In this document: in pieces, positions 6,481-64,000 of the stretch | Layout: every line of letters begins with the position of its first letter | Position numbering within the stretch: position 1 is the stretch's first letter | NCBI GenBank assembly: GCA_017408585.1 | Contig: JAFQUJ010000009.1 | Location: forward strand, 111,918-175,917 | Direction: 5' to 3' | DNA length: 64,000 bases | Origin: Clostridia bacterium | GTDB lineage: Bacteria; Bacillota; Clostridia; Oscillospirales; CAG-272 | Notes under the pieces: generated by a model | Told to the model about the DNA's origin: nothing | Seen by the model: only the letters and a program-made list of their open reading frames with translations | The model's database searches: none | Program-made: the position numbers and the translations under genes

Positions 6481-6518
6481 AATCAAGGTGTCACATATAA
6501 TGAAAGGCAATCATTTTT

Positions 6519-6533
6519 TGTGCAAGTTGCACA
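6519..6533. promoter_or_regulatory. Odd palindrome TGTGCAAGTTGCACA, candidate operator
   Basis: A perfect 7-bp inverted repeat around a single G lies about 50 bases upstream of the next -35 box. The TGTGCA/TGCACA half-sites resemble those flanking the G10 tracts before the two leucine-rich surface genes at 60.4 and 62.3 kb. Confidence 0.4.
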
Positions 6534-6581
6534 GTTTTTCAAATCAAAACTTGTGCTATTGGACGAAAATGCTCAAAATGC

Positions 6582-6658: not shown

Positions 6659-8665
6659 ATGAAAAAGAGATTATTTTTAATGCTCTTTATCCTAGTTGCA
6701 TTAGTTGCAATGCTTGCATCTTGCGGACACGAATGTGAATTCGAGCTAAAGCAAGAAACACCCGCTACCTGTGAGGAAGCCGGATATAGAGTACTGGGTT
6801 GTACCGAATGTGACGAGGAAAAATTAGAGAACATTCCCGCACTAGGACACGATTATGTATCAACTGTTGTCCCACCAACATGTCAGGCACAGGGATACAC
6901 AACACAAAAGTGTAGCAGATGTGGAGACACAAACAACGATGCAAAGCTTGATTTTACCGAAAAGACCAAGCATACATATGTTCATGTTGATAACTCAAAG
7001 GTTGAGCCAACATGTACAGAAAACGGTTATGAGCTTCAAAAATGCTCAGCATGTGGAATAGAGCGCAAATACAATTCCGTTGAAAAGCTCGGCCACAAGT
7101 TCAAGACAACACTTGTTCCATCAGTTCTTCCAACCTGTACAGACGCAGGCGCAGGAACAGAAACTCGTAAATGCGAGGTTTGCGGCACAAAGGACGAAAA
7201 CTTTACAGATAGACCAAATGTAGAAATCCCTGCACTTGGTCATGATATCGATAAAACAGACGATTATCGTACATCAACAACTCCCGCAACATGTACAACC
7301 TCTCAGCATGATGTATGGTCATGTAAGCGCGAGGGCTGTGCTTATACAGAGGAAGCAGATGTCGGTGATCCTTTGGGACACGATTGGACAGTTGATGCAG
7401 GCGTTAAGGCTGCCGCAACCTGTTACTCCCTCGAAACAAGAACCTATAACTGTGTAAGATTTGGTCAAGCCGGTTGCGTTAAGACAGACGCTCAAGGCGA
7501 TGTATCAAAGGTTAAGATAACTGCTGATTCACTACTTCCACATACACCCGGTGCTGCAGCAGACTGTGACACAGCTCAAATCTGTACAGTATGTGAAACC
7601 AATCCATTGGCAAGCGGACTTGGTGAGGCTTGCGTAAACGATGCAACAGGCGTATGCTTGTGTGGTAAGGATTCAAATAAGATCCATGTGTTTGCAGCTC
7701 CTACAGGCGAGCACGATTACGATGTAGCAACTTCAAAGGGACTTCAAGAAACCATCGCTCCAACATGTATGAAGCGAGGCTATTCAGTATATCTTTGCTC
7801 AGGCTGTAACAAGACCTATAATGACAACTATACAGACATCGATCCCGATAATCACAATGTTGACTACGATTCAATGGTAGGCGATAAGATTGTTGATGCT
7901 ACATGTATTAAGTTTGCTTATAGCGTACATGGCTGTACAAACCAAGCAGAAAATGGTACTTTCTGTGACTACACAACCGAAAAGGTTCAAGGCAACGAGT
8001 ATGCTGACCATGTATTCACACTTGCTGATCCAACAGGCGTTGCTACATGTACACATTGTCAAAAGTCCTTCTACGATACAACATATGTTGAAAATGTATA
8101 TATGGAATATGTAGAGATTGATGAGAATGATACAGGTGAATACACCAAATACAACAGAATTGAATCTTATGTAGAAGCAACAGATGGCGACTATGTTTAC
8201 GACGCGGGCACAGAGAAATATGTTCCTGTAGGTGATGGCGAAACTGGTACACATAAGCTTGTTGTTAAATTCGAAGAGTCTGCAACAGGTAACTACAAGC
8301 TAGTTAAATGGGACGGCTCAAACGGAACAGAGTTTGACGAAAATACAAAACTTAATGTAACAATCACAGTAAGCAAGAGCGTTAAGGAGCCAACAGTTCT
8401 CACTAACGCAAGCACATCTGCTACTATAGTTGATAACGCAAATCCTGATACAACCAAGATCACAATCGTTAGAATTATCTCTGACAATGATGATGTTGAG
8501 TTCACAGTAACAGTAAACGGTACTGACTATAAGGTAACAGGTAGCGCTTATATTGATCTTACAAAGATTGGTGATATTGAAACATTGTCAGTAGCATCAA
8601 GCGGTGAGGGCACATACAACGCAACAGTTTACTTCTATGGTGAGGATGCAGTTCCTGCAAACTAA
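6659..8665 (+). CDS. Secreted lipoprotein with repeated CxxC modules
   Basis: A 668-residue predicted lipoprotein: positively charged start, hydrophobic core, and lipobox LASC with Cys at about residue 22. The body is a run of roughly eight degenerate modules of the form ATC-x-E-x-GY...C-x-x-C...PALGHD, each with a CxxC pair, for instance GCTECDEE, KCSRCGDT, KCSACGIE and KCEVCGTK. Similar modules occur in extracellular proteins of gut Clostridia. Paired cysteines suggest metal binding or disulfides, but no function is shown. From about residue 475 the sequence becomes Cys-poor and Thr/Val/Asp-rich, like a beta-sandwich or stalk. It has its own promoter and terminator. The ribosome site is GAAAGGAAG. 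Confidence 0.75.
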   Translation: MKKRLFLMLFILVALVAMLASCGHECEFELKQETPATCEEAGYRVLGCTECDEEKLENIPALGHDYVSTVVPPTCQAQGYTTQKCSRCGDTNNDAKLDFTEKTKHTYVHVDNSKVEPTCTENGYELQKCSACGIERKYNSVEKLGHKFKTTLVPSVLPTCTDAGAGTETRKCEVCGTKDENFTDRPNVEIPALGHDIDKTDDYRTSTTPATCTTSQHDVWSCKREGCAYTEEADVGDPLGHDWTVDAGVKAAATCYSLETRTYNCVRFGQAGCVKTDAQGDVSKVKITADSLLPHTPGAAADCDTAQICTVCETNPLASGLGEACVNDATGVCLCGKDSNKIHVFAAPTGEHDYDVATSKGLQETIAPTCMKRGYSVYLCSGCNKTYNDNYTDIDPDNHNVDYDSMVGDKIVDATCIKFAYSVHGCTNQAENGTFCDYTTEKVQGNEYADHVFTLADPTGVATCTHCQKSFYDTTYVENVYMEYVEIDENDTGEYTKYNRIESYVEATDGDYVYDAGTEKYVPVGDGETGTHKLVVKFEESATGNYKLVKWDGSNGTEFDENTKLNVTITVSKSVKEPTVLTNASTSATIVDNANPDTTKITIVRIISDNDDVEFTVTVNGTDYKVTGSAYIDLTKIGDIETLSVASSGEGTYNATVYFYGEDAVPAN

Positions 8666-58294: not shown

Positions 58295-59941
<1,647 letters not shown>

Positions 59942-59966
59942 TTTCCCCGAAAACGAGGTAAAAAAG

Positions 59967-60296
59967 ATGGACGAAAATATGAACGAAGAGCTCACCATCA
60001 TCGATATGCTGCTTGATGATGAAATAGAGGAGCTGACATTGCTTGACGAAAACGGAAATGAAATAAAATTCTATAACTATGGAATTATCATTCCCTATAC
60101 TGTAAATGACGAAGCAAGAATTTATACAATCCTTGAGCCTGTTGATAAGGTTGACGGTGTCGAGGAAGGAGAGGGGCTCGTGTTCCGCGTATATACAGTA
60201 GAGGCAGATGGCGAGGACAATATCGAAACAGAGGACGATATGGAAATTGTCGAGGGCGTTTTCGCTGAATATCAAAGACTCTTTAACGAGGACTGA
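59967..60296 (+). CDS. DUF1292-family protein
   Basis: A very acidic 109-residue protein of the DUF1292 (YrzB-like) family, with EELTLLDENGNEIKFYNYGIIIPY, then ARIYTILEPV and VFRVYTVEADGEDN. The family occurs widely in Bacillota and has no established function. The start at 59967 follows CGAGGTAAAAAAG. It lies 25 bases after groEL and before a terminator, so it is probably co-transcribed with groESL and heat-inducible in part. Confidence 0.85.
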   Translation: MDENMNEELTIIDMLLDDEIEELTLLDENGNEIKFYNYGIIIPYTVNDEARIYTILEPVDKVDGVEEGEGLVFRVYTVEADGEDNIETEDDMEIVEGVFAEYQRLFNED

Positions 60297-60311
60297 TTTT
60301 AAAAAATGAAT

Positions 60312-60357
60312 AGAGCAAGAATGAAAGGGCTTGACCTTTTATTCTTGCTCTTTTTTG
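60312..60357 (+). terminator. Rho-independent terminator of the groESL operon
   Basis: AGAGCAAGAAT (60312-60322) pairs with ATTCTTGCTCT (60341-60351), with an inner AAGG/CCTT pair and six Ts. Confidence 0.88.
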
Positions 60358-60382
60358 TTAGTGCAATTTATTTTGGTAAAAA

Positions 60383-60452
60383 TGCACAAAAAATGGGGGG
60401 GGGGATTTGTTTATTGTGCATATTGACAAACACATATAATATATGGTAAAAT
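60383..60452 (+). promoter_or_regulatory. G10 inverted-repeat element and promoter, copy 1
   Basis: TGCACAA (60383-60389), a G10 tract (60395-60404), and TTGTGCA (60414-60420) lie directly before TTGACA (60423-60428), 18 bases, TGg-TAAAAT (60447-60452). The 48 bases from 60383 to 60430 are identical to those at 62252-62299. A TGCCC-TCAC-GGGCA hairpin precedes the ribosome site. The layout suggests a switchable or regulated promoter. Confidence 0.85.
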
Positions 60453-60507
60453 TATACTGTATAAATATTTTATGCCCTCACGGGCAGGAGAAAAATGGAG
60501 GAAAACA

Positions 60508-62190
60508 ATGAAGAAAAAATTAATTCTTGCCATTTGTATCGCAGTGTGCGCAATGCTCTTGGCAATCACAGCTTCTGCAACATCTGTTGTTCCACAAAAG
60601 CCAACACTTGATGTTGATTTTGGAAGCGTGACCACAATTGATGGCTTTACAGCACCATCAGACAAATTCACAACAACAGAAAGAGTCCTTTTGACAGACG
60701 GAGAAGGCAACTATGTTACCTATCCAACCTACTATGTTACAAAGGACAACACAACCTTTGACTTTGATTTTTCAAAGCTCAATGCGGCTCAGTCAGTTCA
60801 GTACACAAAGAAGTCTGTTGTAATGCTTGAAATTCCAAGCGGAATTACAACAATTTCCAATTCCTACTTTGCAGGAACGGGCAATTTCCCACTTTGCGTA
60901 TCTGTTCAATTTCCCGGCACTGTTACAAGCTACGGCTCATCTTTGTTTCAGACAAACTCTGTAATAAAAATAGTTGAATTCCTTGATGGTACCGAGCCTA
61001 TAACAATGGGAGATCAAATGTTTGGTTCTAACTGGTCGGTAGGAACATCGGCAATAGAATATGTTAAGTTTCCAAACAATCTCGTTTCCATAGGAAATAA
61101 TACTTTTGGAAAGGCAAAATATGTTTCTAAGACTGTTATTCTCGGTGCAAACCTTGAGACAATAGGAACAGGCTTTTTTGGTGAATCGACTTTGAGCAGC
61201 ACAGATACCTTTATTTATGTTTCGGATAAGTTCTTTGCAGATACAACAAAGGTTTTCGCAAATCTTTTTGGAAACGAGGCTCCTCACCACGGAAACAATC
61301 TAAGACTTACGATTTTCTATGTAGGCTCAAAGGAGAATGCTCAAAAGCTCGCAGAGGCTTGTGCGGCTCTTGAAACGGACTATTGCTTTAATGAGGGCAG
61401 AGTCCAATATGTTAGTGCATCTGAATACGATTATGCAACCCATAAGCCTACAGATAACAAGAGAGCAACAATCATTTATGATGTTGACAAATGCGACGCA
61501 TTCTATGGCGGACATATTTACGAGGGTACAGGACTTTGCGTTGATGGCTTTGATTGCGTTAACTGTGATAAGACAATCGCAGGTACAGCCTCTCATAACG
61601 AGGTTAAATCCTTCGCATTTGAAAATGGTTATACACAAGGTGGCTTGTTCACCAATGTGTGCACAAACGAGGGCTGTAAGCTAAGAGAAGAGGTTGCTCT
61701 TGACCCCATTTTCAGCGCTCTTGAAGCAAACGGATTTTCAACAAACGGAACAGGCATTTCCTTTGGTGGATATACTGTAAATAATAAGGCTCTTCAAAAA
61801 TTCGAGGAAACCTGTGGAGTTGATCTCACCTTCGGTATCGCAATTATGAACCCTAAATATGTAGGCGACACATTCTTCGCTGATGGCAAGATAAATGCAA
61901 CAAACGGAGCAATTACAGCTGATATGAGCGATACAGAATACGCAAGCATTAAGGTAATGATTGATGGCTTTACAGGTAGCCTGGTAGATCTTGAGCTTGT
62001 AATTGCCCTTTACGCATATACCGATGTAAACGATGTAGAATTCATTCAAAGCGCAGATACAAAGAGCGCTTGCTCAAGCGTAGCAAAGAATGACGCAACA
62101 CTTTATACAGTATCTGTAAACAGTATAGATGCAAAGGCTTGCACAAGTCTTGATGCTCTTCTTCCTTACGAGCCTAAGGAATTAGTTTAA
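60508..62190 (+). CDS. Secreted BspA-like leucine-rich protein
   Basis: A 560-residue secreted protein. The signal peptide KKKLILAICIAVCAMLLAITASA is cut near residue 24. From about 90 to 270 are BspA/LRR_5-type repeats: SVVMLEIPSGITTISNSYFAG, YVKFPNNLVSIGNNTFGKA, VILGANLETIGTGFFGES. A Cys-rich stretch follows (about 325-395), then a C-terminal module of about 130 residues from NGYTQGGLFTNVC that recurs in the next gene. Such proteins mediate adhesion or glycan and host contacts. No LPXTG or other anchor is evident. The start at 60508 follows ATGGAGGAAAACA. Confidence 0.85.
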   Translation: MKKKLILAICIAVCAMLLAITASATSVVPQKPTLDVDFGSVTTIDGFTAPSDKFTTTERVLLTDGEGNYVTYPTYYVTKDNTTFDFDFSKLNAAQSVQYTKKSVVMLEIPSGITTISNSYFAGTGNFPLCVSVQFPGTVTSYGSSLFQTNSVIKIVEFLDGTEPITMGDQMFGSNWSVGTSAIEYVKFPNNLVSIGNNTFGKAKYVSKTVILGANLETIGTGFFGESTLSSTDTFIYVSDKFFADTTKVFANLFGNEAPHHGNNLRLTIFYVGSKENAQKLAEACAALETDYCFNEGRVQYVSASEYDYATHKPTDNKRATIIYDVDKCDAFYGGHIYEGTGLCVDGFDCVNCDKTIAGTASHNEVKSFAFENGYTQGGLFTNVCTNEGCKLREEVALDPIFSALEANGFSTNGTGISFGGYTVNNKALQKFEETCGVDLTFGIAIMNPKYVGDTFFADGKINATNGAITADMSDTEYASIKVMIDGFTGSLVDLELVIALYAYTDVNDVEFIQSADTKSACSSVAKNDATLYTVSVNSIDAKACTSLDALLPYEPKELV

Positions 62191-62204
62191 ATTCAAATAT
62201 TACG

Positions 62205-62234
62205 AAAAGGAAGTGAATTTCACTTCCTTTTTTT
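62205..62234 (+). terminator. Rho-independent terminator
   Basis: AAAAGGAAGTGAA (62205-62217) pairs with TTCACTTCCTTTT (62219-62231), followed by Ts. It separates the two leucine-rich genes. Confidence 0.88.
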
Positions 62235-62251
62235 GTGTATCTTGGTGAAAC

Positions 62252-62321
62252 TGCACAAAAAATGGGGGGGGGGATTTGTTTATTGTGCATATTGACAAAT
62301 AATATTAAAATATGCTATAAT
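62252..62321 (+). promoter_or_regulatory. G10 inverted-repeat element and promoter, copy 2
   Basis: TGCACAA (62252-62258), G10 (62264-62273), TTGTGCA (62283-62289), then TTGACA (62292-62297), 18 bases, TGc-TATAAT (62316-62321). A TGCCC-GCGG-GGGCA hairpin lies in the leader (62341-62354). Same order and spacing as copy 1. Confidence 0.85.
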
Positions 62322-62374
62322 TAAGATGTGAAAAAATCTATGCCCGCGGGGGCATCCCCGCAAGGAGATAAAAC

Positions 62375-64000
62375 ATGAAAAAAAGATTATTTTTGGTAAT
62401 CATTCTGGCGATTGCTCTCTGTGTAATGCTTGCTCTCACAGTGAGTGCGGAAGCCACCACATATGGTGATGCGCCGGCGAGGACAAACATTCAAGTCCTT
62501 GAGAGCGACCTCATCGTTTTTGATGACGGATTTACAACTCTTTCCGCATATGTTGTAAAGGATAGCACCGAATTTGGTTGGAAGCAGAACGCATATGATT
62601 TTTCCTTTATCAATGGCAAAACAGGCAAAACCTATACCTATGACAACATTAAGGAGCTTGATATTCCGCAGGGCGTTGTATCCATTGCTACCTCTGCCTT
62701 TGCAAGCAACAAAAACATTGTAAGAGTATCATTTCCGGACTCTGTAACAACTCTTGGCGGCACAATATTTGAGTATTGCTCAAATCTTCAAAAATGCTCC
62801 TTTGAGCATAATGAAAATTCAGGACTTGAAACAATTCCGAACTGGTTTCTTGCTCAGTGTACATCGCTTACCGCGGTTAGCTTTCCCGATTGTGTAAAAT
62901 ATGTCACAGGTAACTCATTCATTGGCGGATGCACAAGCCTTGGCGCGGTTTATCTTCCAAAGAATCTCATTTCAACCGAAGGTGGACAAAACACTAATGG
63001 CACTTATGGTGGCTGTACAAATATGTACTTTGTAAATGAGCCGTTTACCTATGATAACATTCCCGCAAAGCCTGATGTTTACTATTTTCCTGCGGGCTAC
63101 AAGAGCATAACAGGCGAGGCATTTGACACCTGTAAAAACCTCAACAAGGTGCTCGTTTTCCAAGCCGATGGTGTAACCTTTGATAACGCATGGACCTTTG
63201 AAAATGTTCAAAACGGTGAAGGCGGAAAGCCGATTATCGTGTTCACAGGCGATGTTACAAGCGTTAGCGTTGGCTCTTGGAATGTAGATAAGATTTTGTT
63301 CTCCAACGCAAATGATGTTGACACCACAACCGCAGGCGTTAGCGGAAGCAAGACACTTGTTTTCTGCGCTAATGAAAGCGATGTTTCAAAGCACCTTACA
63401 AGCCCTAAGCATTCAAGCATTACTCCTGCAACCTGCTACTCAAACAAGATAGAATTAAACAAATGCTTCTGTGGCAAAACGCTTAGTGAGGGAGAGGTTG
63501 AAAATACAATGCTCGACCATGTTTACAAGACAAGCAATAGCTGTATCGTAGGAGCTCAATGTGAGAACTTTGAGCATTGTGGAGCAGAGCTTAGCCCAAT
63601 CGCTCAAGAGCACGCAATGTCACAAACAGTTATATATGCACAAGGCTTTACAAAGTCCGGTGTTCATAGCAAGTTCTGCACAAACGAAAATTGCACAGTA
63701 GAAGATAAGGATATCGTTCTTTCACCAATTTTTGTGGCTAAGGGATATTCAACAAACTCCGAAAAAACCGCAATCAACGGTGGATATACCGTAAACTTGG
63801 ATGCTCTTGAAATCTATGAGGGCGTAAATGGCAATATCACCTATGGTATCGTAATTGCAAACGCAGAAAAGTTTGACGGTAAGAGCTTCTTTGACGAAAG
63901 CAATAAGGTAAATACCACTAAGGCTCTTCAAGTTGAAATTGATGACGAGTATAGCAATTTCGATTGCTCAATCAATTTTGGCTCAACTGCAAATAGCGAC
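62375..64000 (+). CDS. Secreted BspA-like leucine-rich protein, paralog (partial)
   Basis: The frame starts at ATG 62375 behind AAGGAGATAAAAC and is open to the window edge (542 codons seen). Signal peptide KKRLFLVIILAIALCVMLAL ends at TVSAEA. LRR_5-type repeats follow, such as IKELDIPQGVVSIATSAFASN, VRVSFPDSVTTLGGTIFEY and LTAVSFPDCVKYVTGNSF. A Cys-containing stretch precedes a C-terminal module from about residue 421 (QGFTKSGVHSKFCTNENC, YSTNSEKTAINGGYTVN, ITYGIVIANAEKFDG) that aligns with residues 372-500 of the previous protein. The two are tandem paralogs with duplicated promoters. Confidence 0.85.
   Translation, partial: MKKRLFLVIILAIALCVMLALTVSAEATTYGDAPARTNIQVLESDLIVFDDGFTTLSAYVVKDSTEFGWKQNAYDFSFINGKTGKTYTYDNIKELDIPQGVVSIATSAFASNKNIVRVSFPDSVTTLGGTIFEYCSNLQKCSFEHNENSGLETIPNWFLAQCTSLTAVSFPDCVKYVTGNSFIGGCTSLGAVYLPKNLISTEGGQNTNGTYGGCTNMYFVNEPFTYDNIPAKPDVYYFPAGYKSITGEAFDTCKNLNKVLVFQADGVTFDNAWTFENVQNGEGGKPIIVFTGDVTSVSVGSWNVDKILFSNANDVDTTTAGVSGSKTLVFCANESDVSKHLTSPKHSSITPATCYSNKIELNKCFCGKTLSEGEVENTMLDHVYKTSNSCIVGAQCENFEHCGAELSPIAQEHAMSQTVIYAQGFTKSGVHSKFCTNENCTVEDKDIVLSPIFVAKGYSTNSEKTAINGGYTVNLDALEIYEGVNGNITYGIVIANAEKFDGKSFFDESNKVNTTKALQVEIDDEYSNFDCSINFGSTANSD

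Follow-up and report, generated by a model that had tools for sequence, protein, structure and literature searches.

Why should two neighbouring genes for secreted leucine-rich proteins be preceded by the same short stretch of DNA, in which ten guanines lie between inverted half-sites next to a promoter, and could the length of this G run act as a switch? The locus is found at the end of the window, a stretch of 64,000 nucleotides that was analysed as a whole (contig C4, 111918-175917) and that belongs to a metagenome-assembled genome (MAG) of a Clostridia bacterium, here called G000. The assembly comprises 1.48 Mb in 20 contigs, and its completeness was put at 69%. An initial annotation, made from the sequence alone, had described an identical block of 48 bases in front of each gene, and a letter-by-letter reading of both blocks (60383-60430 and 62252-62299) confirmed that all 48 bases agree. 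Both copies also contain TGCACAA, G10, TTGTGCA and an extended promoter with an 18-base spacer, as had been described. The tract does not touch the half-sites; the order is TGCACAA, five bases, G10, nine bases, TTGTGCA, two bases and TTGACA, followed by the 18-base spacer and the extended -10 region (Table 1). The annotation had called G10 rare for DNA of this composition (39.8% GC), and this holds true for the window, where the longest other G run on the plus strand is G5 (three cases) and the longest C run is C6 (one case), as well as for the genome, which has only 24 runs of at least eight Gs. The tract length is far beyond chance, runs of G6 to G9 being absent from the plus strand of the window: four overlapping G9 matches were observed against a mean of 0.06 in dinucleotide-preserving shuffles, which also retain the GG steps contributed by the G runs themselves, and one of 100 shuffles reached four. 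An Rfam search of positions 59900-64000 gave five matches up to E = 1, all of which were below the gathering score and were judged to be due to chance.

Table 1. Features at the poly-G locus, with positions counted from the first base of the window.
Feature	Position	Strand	Basis
H1, degenerate upstream half-site TTGGTAA, three mismatches to TTGTGCA, three bases 5' of H2	60373-60379	+	read directly, compared with intact H1 at other loci
H2 half-site TGCACAA, copy 1	60383-60389	+	read directly
G10 tract, copy 1; H2-H3 spacer 5+10+9 = 24 bases	60395-60404	+	read directly, spacing scoring
H3 half-site TTGTGCA, copy 1, two bases 5' of the -35 box	60414-60420	+	
Promoter 1: -35 TTGACA (60423-60428), 18-base spacer, TGG-TAAAAT, -10 at 60447-60452	60423-60452	+	consensus match only
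Secreted BspA-type LRR protein, 559 aa plus stop, signal-like start MKKKLILAICIAVCAMLLAITASA	60511-62190	+	LRR_5, E 4.9e-13
H2 half-site TGCACAA, copy 2	62252-62258	+	read directly
G10 tract, copy 2; H2-H3 spacing 24	62264-62273	+	read directly, spacing scoring
H3 half-site TTGTGCA, copy 2	62283-62289	+	read directly
Promoter 2: TTGACA (62292-62297), 18-base spacer, TGC-TATAAT, -10 at 62316-62321	62292-62321	+	consensus match only
Leader hairpin GCGGGG-GCAT-CCCCGC (62346-62361), then AAGGAG Shine-Dalgarno	62346-62367	+	read directly, leader comparison
Second secreted BspA-type LRR protein, truncated by the window end	62375-64000	+	signal-like start; LRR_5, E 3.3e-19

The annotation had regarded the locus as a two-gene system and had suggested that the half-site/G-tract/half-site pattern be sought elsewhere. 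Similar elements were indeed found at many loci and in relatives, and the idea of a two-gene system had to be abandoned: this incomplete genome holds 20 such modules, plus two promoters with a G run in their spacer and one tract in hsdS. The 24 runs of at least eight Gs in G000 comprise one G8, one G9, twelve G10 and ten G11. All 23 runs of at least nine are placed where a change in length could alter transcription or a reading frame; 20 lie in modules, two make up the spacer between -35 and -10 in lipoprotein promoters and one splits the hsdS gene. The half-sites and the tract of the originally described architecture were retrieved at these loci, but the layout common elsewhere often includes more, namely a full palindrome TTGTGCAnnnTGCACAA consisting of the half-sites H1 and H2, then the tract, and close to the -35 box another half-site, H3; in both window copies, H1 is poor. 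In 15 of the 20 modules, the promoter lies on the G-strand side as in the window, and the remaining five are flipped, with the -35 box on the opposite side and a C tract on the coding strand. The gene that each of the five flipped modules faces lies on the opposite strand; four of these genes have a clear signal-like start, and one encodes a membrane-protein-like product.

Most module targets encode secreted proteins, more than half of them with BspA-type LRR repeats. The LRR_5 cut-off was passed by 11 of the 18 scanned module genes (of 20) of G000, with one more just below it, and a crude rule recognized a signal-like start in 55 of 58 scored downstream ORFs. Exceptions are the modules at C10:52298, which precedes a gene for a 282-aa membrane-like protein without assigned family, at C12:53286, which has no clear secreted gene nearby, and at C13:14341, whose gene encodes a 343-aa membrane-like protein. 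The two spacer-type promoters (C10:82318 and C10:86632) are nearly identical and read TTGACA-TTTTTTGT-G11 or G10-TATAAT with spacers of 19 and 18 bases; they serve neighbouring paralogous lipoprotein-like genes, the first of which contains LRR_5 and Big_2. A homopolymer between -35 and -10, as known for porA, is restricted to these two promoters and absent from the window elements, which sit 5' of the -35 box. In the hsdS-like gene near the end of C12, the frame stops shortly after G11 and the second half can be read in a different frame; both halves match Methylase_S. This type I restriction specificity gene (L054:2779-3798 and 2286-2732) adjoins genes that were named ATPase-like and HTH-like by eye.

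It had further been proposed that tract length sets the distance between the half-sites. The tract does lie between them, but the distance is conserved more strongly than the length of the tract itself. For stretches from seven genomes of the genus, the left flank, the G length and the right flank between TGCACAA and TTGTGCA were scored. Among 71 runs of at least seven that were tried, 12 were dropped because they had no good second arm or lay at a contig edge, and 59 were scored; the single runs of G003, G006 and G015 were left out of the spacing counts. After removal of L114, which is plainly not a module, and of two degenerate G043 sites, a set of 56 modules from six genomes was obtained. 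The H2-H3 spacing in this set is 22 in two, 23 in seven, 24 in 34, 25 in 12 and 26 in one module. The G length varies from 7 to 13 and the flanks vary too; the two compensate each other (Spearman rho -0.69), and the variance of the total spacing (0.55) is smaller than that of the flanks (0.82) or the G length (0.91). Permutation gave p = 5e-5 both overall and within genomes, which is the floor (0 of 20,000 permutations), and per-genome values of 0.012 for G000, 0.003 for G016, 0.002 for G021 and 0.10 for G041 (six sites), all of which overstate independence because module copies share ancestry. When the three left-out sites are restored, compensation weakens to r = -0.25, with permutation p values of 0.02 over all sites and 0.08 within genomes, and single-base substitutions at the tract edge also swap G against flank length, a process that does not need selection.

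The spacing can also be read with no reference to Gs. A search of 12 genomes for CACAA, any 10 to 40 bases, TTGTGCA, up to nine bases and TTGAC yielded 37 distinct sites in the five tract-rich genomes, 24 of which have a spacing of exactly 24 and 36 of which fall between 22 and 25, with one at 20; the seven other genomes gave four matches, at 10, 15, 16 and 37. A G or C run of at least seven is present in 32 of the 37 sites, and the five sites that lack one are spaced at 24, 24, 24, 23 and 20. Another module free of a G run precedes an LRR_5 gene in G041 (L298) and is spaced at 24, bringing the modules without a long run to six (24 in four, 23 and 20). Since they mostly keep the spacing, the half-site distance looks constrained whatever fills it, and these modules show that the G tract is dispensable. 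H3 lies two to three bases from the -35 box in 32 of the 59 sites and six to seven bases in 25, and the two groups are half a turn apart. Likewise, among the 55 sites with a good -35 box, H2 is 32-34 bases away from it in 30 and 36-40 bases in 25, with H2-H3 near 24 in both groups. As the distance from H2 to the -35 box is bimodal while that from H2 to H3 is not, the half-sites appear to act as a pair, and H2 seems to keep its phase with H3 and not with the polymerase. For the usual three-base gap between H1 and H2, the centre-to-centre distances are 10 bp for H1-H2, 31 bp for H2-H3 and 41 bp for H1-H3, which corresponds to about one, three and four helical turns at a repeat of 10.5 bp per turn. 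At the level of sequence, the same half-site flanks the tract on both sides at a conserved distance, and both sides are candidate binding sites.

The length of the tract differs even between close copies. Nine site pairs, few in number and selected by ungapped flank similarity, differ at no more than six of 60 ungapped flanking bases, and in seven of them the G length differs by one or two; since no gaps are needed to align the flanks, the changes in length are real. Among the 18 listed pairs of reciprocal best homologues from different genomes, which overlap and are not independent, the G length is equal in five and the total spacing in nine. As judged from these alignments, the comparison shows that tract length changes fast on an evolutionary scale, both between copies and between species. 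Runs of at least nine Gs were found in 10 of the 29 genomes of the genus, the other 19 having none, and are concentrated in five tract-rich genomes, namely G000 (23), G016 (14), G021 (nine), G041 (seven) and G009 (five). Loss of mismatch repair was considered as a source of the long runs and rejected, because all five have mutS1 and mutL matches above the curated cut-off and thus do not look repair-deficient. In G043, mutS1 is present and the mutL match is only weak.

Long G runs often change length in living cells. We favour, at somewhat better than even chances, a reading in which the tract is a spacer between half-operators of one putative regulator that can be tuned by slippage at about 20 genes, similar to the nadA system. 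The regulator would recognize the palindrome together with the third half-site near the -35 box, and the poly-G run between H2 and H3 would set their distance, normally 24 bases. A slipped-strand change of one or two bases would then alter both the rotation and the position of one half-site relative to its partner, and the altered phase would weaken or restore joint binding, thereby turning transcription of that single gene up or down. About twenty genes could in this way vary independently within a population under one shared, perhaps sugar-linked, regulator. The position of H3 at the -35 box suggests that the regulator is probably a repressor, and the phasing of H2 to H3 speaks for a single regulator whose binding is cooperative across the tract; we therefore infer a cooperative repressor that binds on both sides. 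Slippage in living populations and its effect on expression are likewise predicted from the pattern, and with so little variation in spacing, most cells may share a single state.

Alternatively, the G run could be a stiff or contacted spacer of fixed length within a wide operator, which drifts slowly during evolution and does not switch within populations. This explanation, which we regard as rather unlikely but worth serious attention, agrees with the 34 of 56 modules spaced at 24, with the narrow range of G lengths, with the presence of mismatch repair and with the modules that lack a long run and are still spaced at 23-24. However, a fixed spacer needs no unbroken G run, and yet such a run of at least seven occupies 32 of the 37 sites that were found irrespective of their Gs. 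A static operator would also leave aside that G length differs between near-identical copies, that G000 carries G runs in two other positions typical of slippage and that the Gs may be on either strand.

The same length changes could act on the promoter itself, either through contacts of the RNA polymerase or through bending, and not on half-site spacing. RNA polymerase can make upstream contacts in the region 5' of the -35 box, and the tract occupies positions about 18-32 bases from this box. Minor but detectable differences between nadA phase variants that are independent of NadR, as described in the available part of the nadA study (Metruccio et al. 2009, PMC2791445), would fit such an effect. 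We nevertheless consider it improbable, because the distance from H2 to the -35 box falls into two groups about five bases apart and H2-H3 stays near 24. Still less credit is given to the possibility that the G run and its inverted arms are a signal for recombination or gene conversion by which paralogous surface genes are shuffled, comparable to the G-quadruplex that acts as a gene-conversion signal at the pilin locus of Neisseria. It could account for the fact that the two window loci have the same block and five further loci a nearly identical one, while the coding regions behind these blocks are only about 21-60% identical where they can be aligned. However, a standard three-layer quadruplex needs more than ten Gs on one strand, the modules stand at a few fixed distances from the -35 box and flipped modules retain this geometry, so that a shuffling signal is very improbable. 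That the poly-G runs are assembly or sequencing artefacts has practically no chance of being correct: two-colour Illumina data do produce poly-G artefacts, but the same flanks and runs recur in MAGs titled roe deer, water deer and SIG661, mostly well inside contigs.

The operator itself looks older than the G tract of the favoured slippage-tuned spacer. Allowing for one mismatch at most, the palindrome occurs 19 times in G000 and three to eight times in each of five members of the genus with no or one long G run. Twenty places without an adjoining long G run were read among the matches listed. Four of these adjoin a gene for a UgpC-type ABC ATPase (in G000, G011, G003 and G041), four are located between genes for a ROK kinase and a secreted protein (in G000, G011, G003 and G019), four are modules that precede secreted genes and whose run is short or absent (L295, L298, L300 and L301), and the remaining eight have no common theme; the UgpC and ROK families were assigned by profile scans for the G000 copies and by eye in the other genomes. 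The G-free palindrome at UgpC-type and ROK genes suggests an older, sugar-linked operator, and its recruitment to surface genes together with a poly-G spacer would be a derived state in part of the genus. An extended version of this reading, which we put forward tentatively and at somewhat less than even chances, is a combinatorial surface coat: the old palindromic operator with its poly-G spacer would have spread by copying, in both orientations, to about twenty promoters, most of them for surface proteins, and the share of the common regulator that each one receives would be set stochastically by helical phase. In the window, a palindrome with one mismatch and without Gs (TTGTGCAAGTTGCACAG, 6518-6534) lies about 125 bases 5' of a 668-aa lipoprotein-like ORF (gene at 6659) and is a possible G-less member of the same regulon.

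Tuning of operator spacing by slippage is, to our knowledge, known from single cases such as nadA. The meningococcal nadA promoter carries a variable repeat 5' of its core, between operators of the repressor NadR, and controls a surface adhesin; the differences between its phase variants were put down to a likely difference in operator spacing (Metruccio et al. 2009, PMC2791445). According to the same part of that study, the repeat is the tetranucleotide TAAA at one gene, the operators span -139 to -119 and -15 to +7, with a further, weaker one over the repeat, NadR belongs to the MarR family and IHF takes part (PMC2791445). The modules described here likewise have a simple repeat between putative operators, one distal and one at the promoter, and surface-protein targets; unlike nadA as portrayed there, they contain poly-G or poly-C, occur at about 20 genes and have half-sites only 24 bases apart. 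By analogy, the module would work like nadA/NadR and yet be new in its repeat type, gene number, geometry and host.

Other systems share single traits with G000, as far as the consulted parts of the sources describe them. In Treponema pallidum, poly-G runs of about 7-11 are found at promoters of surface proteins (tpr and tp0126); the tp0126 run lies between -35 and -10, and transcription of tprL starts four bases after its run (PMC7864442). The two C10 promoters resemble tp0126, whereas the window tract, unlike the tprL run within the promoter, is located 5' of the -35 box in a half-site module, and a module of half-sites at fixed spacing is not mentioned in the available part of PMC7864442. 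A homopolymer in or adjoining the -35/-10 spacer, as in meningococcal porA and opc (as cited in PMC2791445 and PMC7864442), is again matched by C10:82318 and C10:86632 and not by the window elements upstream of -35. In Candidatus Mycoplasma girerdii, BspA-like surface proteins and HsdS vary via simple repeats, as seen in metagenome reads; these are mainly dinucleotide repeats, and the consequence was taken to be a frameshift of the ORF (PMC5476646, available part). G000 similarly pairs BspA-type LRR genes and hsdS with simple repeats, but its module tract is a putative operator spacer at the promoter. Phase variation by promoter poly-G in Clostridia was not found in the titles or abstract openings of the few papers retrieved from open-licence literature. 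What appears new is one module at about twenty genes with a spacing constraint that is legible from sequence alone. If tract length changes in living cells, each cell could display a different surface; in a genus that includes gut Clostridia of roe deer and water deer, such strain-level variation would be invisible to comparisons of gene content and measurable by G counts in existing metagenome reads.

Several searches extended beyond the genus or the genome. An element on contig C124 of G039 was considered as a second strain of the species and dismissed: it is 98% identical over 51 bases, but its protein is only 54% identical to the best G000 homologue, and it is taken to come from another species or to be a paralog or stray contig, not an allele. 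A class-wide distribution was rejected as well, because only the window's genome and a second one, with a chance-like match, turned up among 391 sampled genomes of the class, and one scan of viral contigs with a single pattern returned no phage-borne element. A wider scan for TGCACAAAAA-n-G9 gave 40 stretches, 19 within the genus and 21 elsewhere, of which six or seven keep both arms at 23-25. These are L144, L158, L159, L165, L167 and L168 (L165 with two mismatches and no -35 box) and L154, whose arms are at 25 by eye, the script having picked another place. L141 has a spacing of 23 with a two-mismatch arm and no promoter, and L132 a spacing of 15; for L139, L143, L148, L149 and L150 the only second arms carry two mismatches and are at 14-39, and none is within reach for L134, L138, L142, L157 and L161. 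L151 and L170 from one MAG (Tb.RUG.36) carry an exact second arm TTGTGCA at 31 and 29; they read TGCACAAAAATCT-G11 or G9, their reverse side faces lipoprotein-like starts, and they are perhaps a longer-spaced cousin of the module. In the goat-derived Clostridia MAG RGIG2138 (G434), six of the seven runs of at least nine are followed by lipoprotein starts that resemble one another, and TTGTGCA-type half-sites accompany five of the six; tract lengths range from G9 to G15 and the spacing was measured for two sites only. This looks like a parallel half-site/poly-G system at lipoprotein paralogs.

Long G runs of other kinds were seen along the way. MAGs titled Lapin (L224-L265) contain 32 (G437), eight (G435) and eight (G438) runs of at least nine, and a reading of all of them placed many inside ORFs that resemble, by eye, genes for glycosyltransferases and acyltransferases or cell-surface genes; Campylobacter has comparable contingency loci within coding regions. 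The 1.2-Mb genome G440 (L281-L283) has 17 G runs of at least nine, 15 of which are preceded by A; four that were read look unlike the module, and one of them directly follows TTGACA. Finally, the hairpin in the leader of the second window gene gave no Rfam match at the gathering score, and the stem in the leader of the first gene differs (GCCC-TCAC-GGGC). Hairpins directly 5' of the Shine-Dalgarno sequence are also present in leaders of module-driven genes in L038, L041, L042, L043, L051, L053, L178, L179 and L181, and across 11 leaders chosen as alike from 20, compensatory double changes were found in five of the six pairs.
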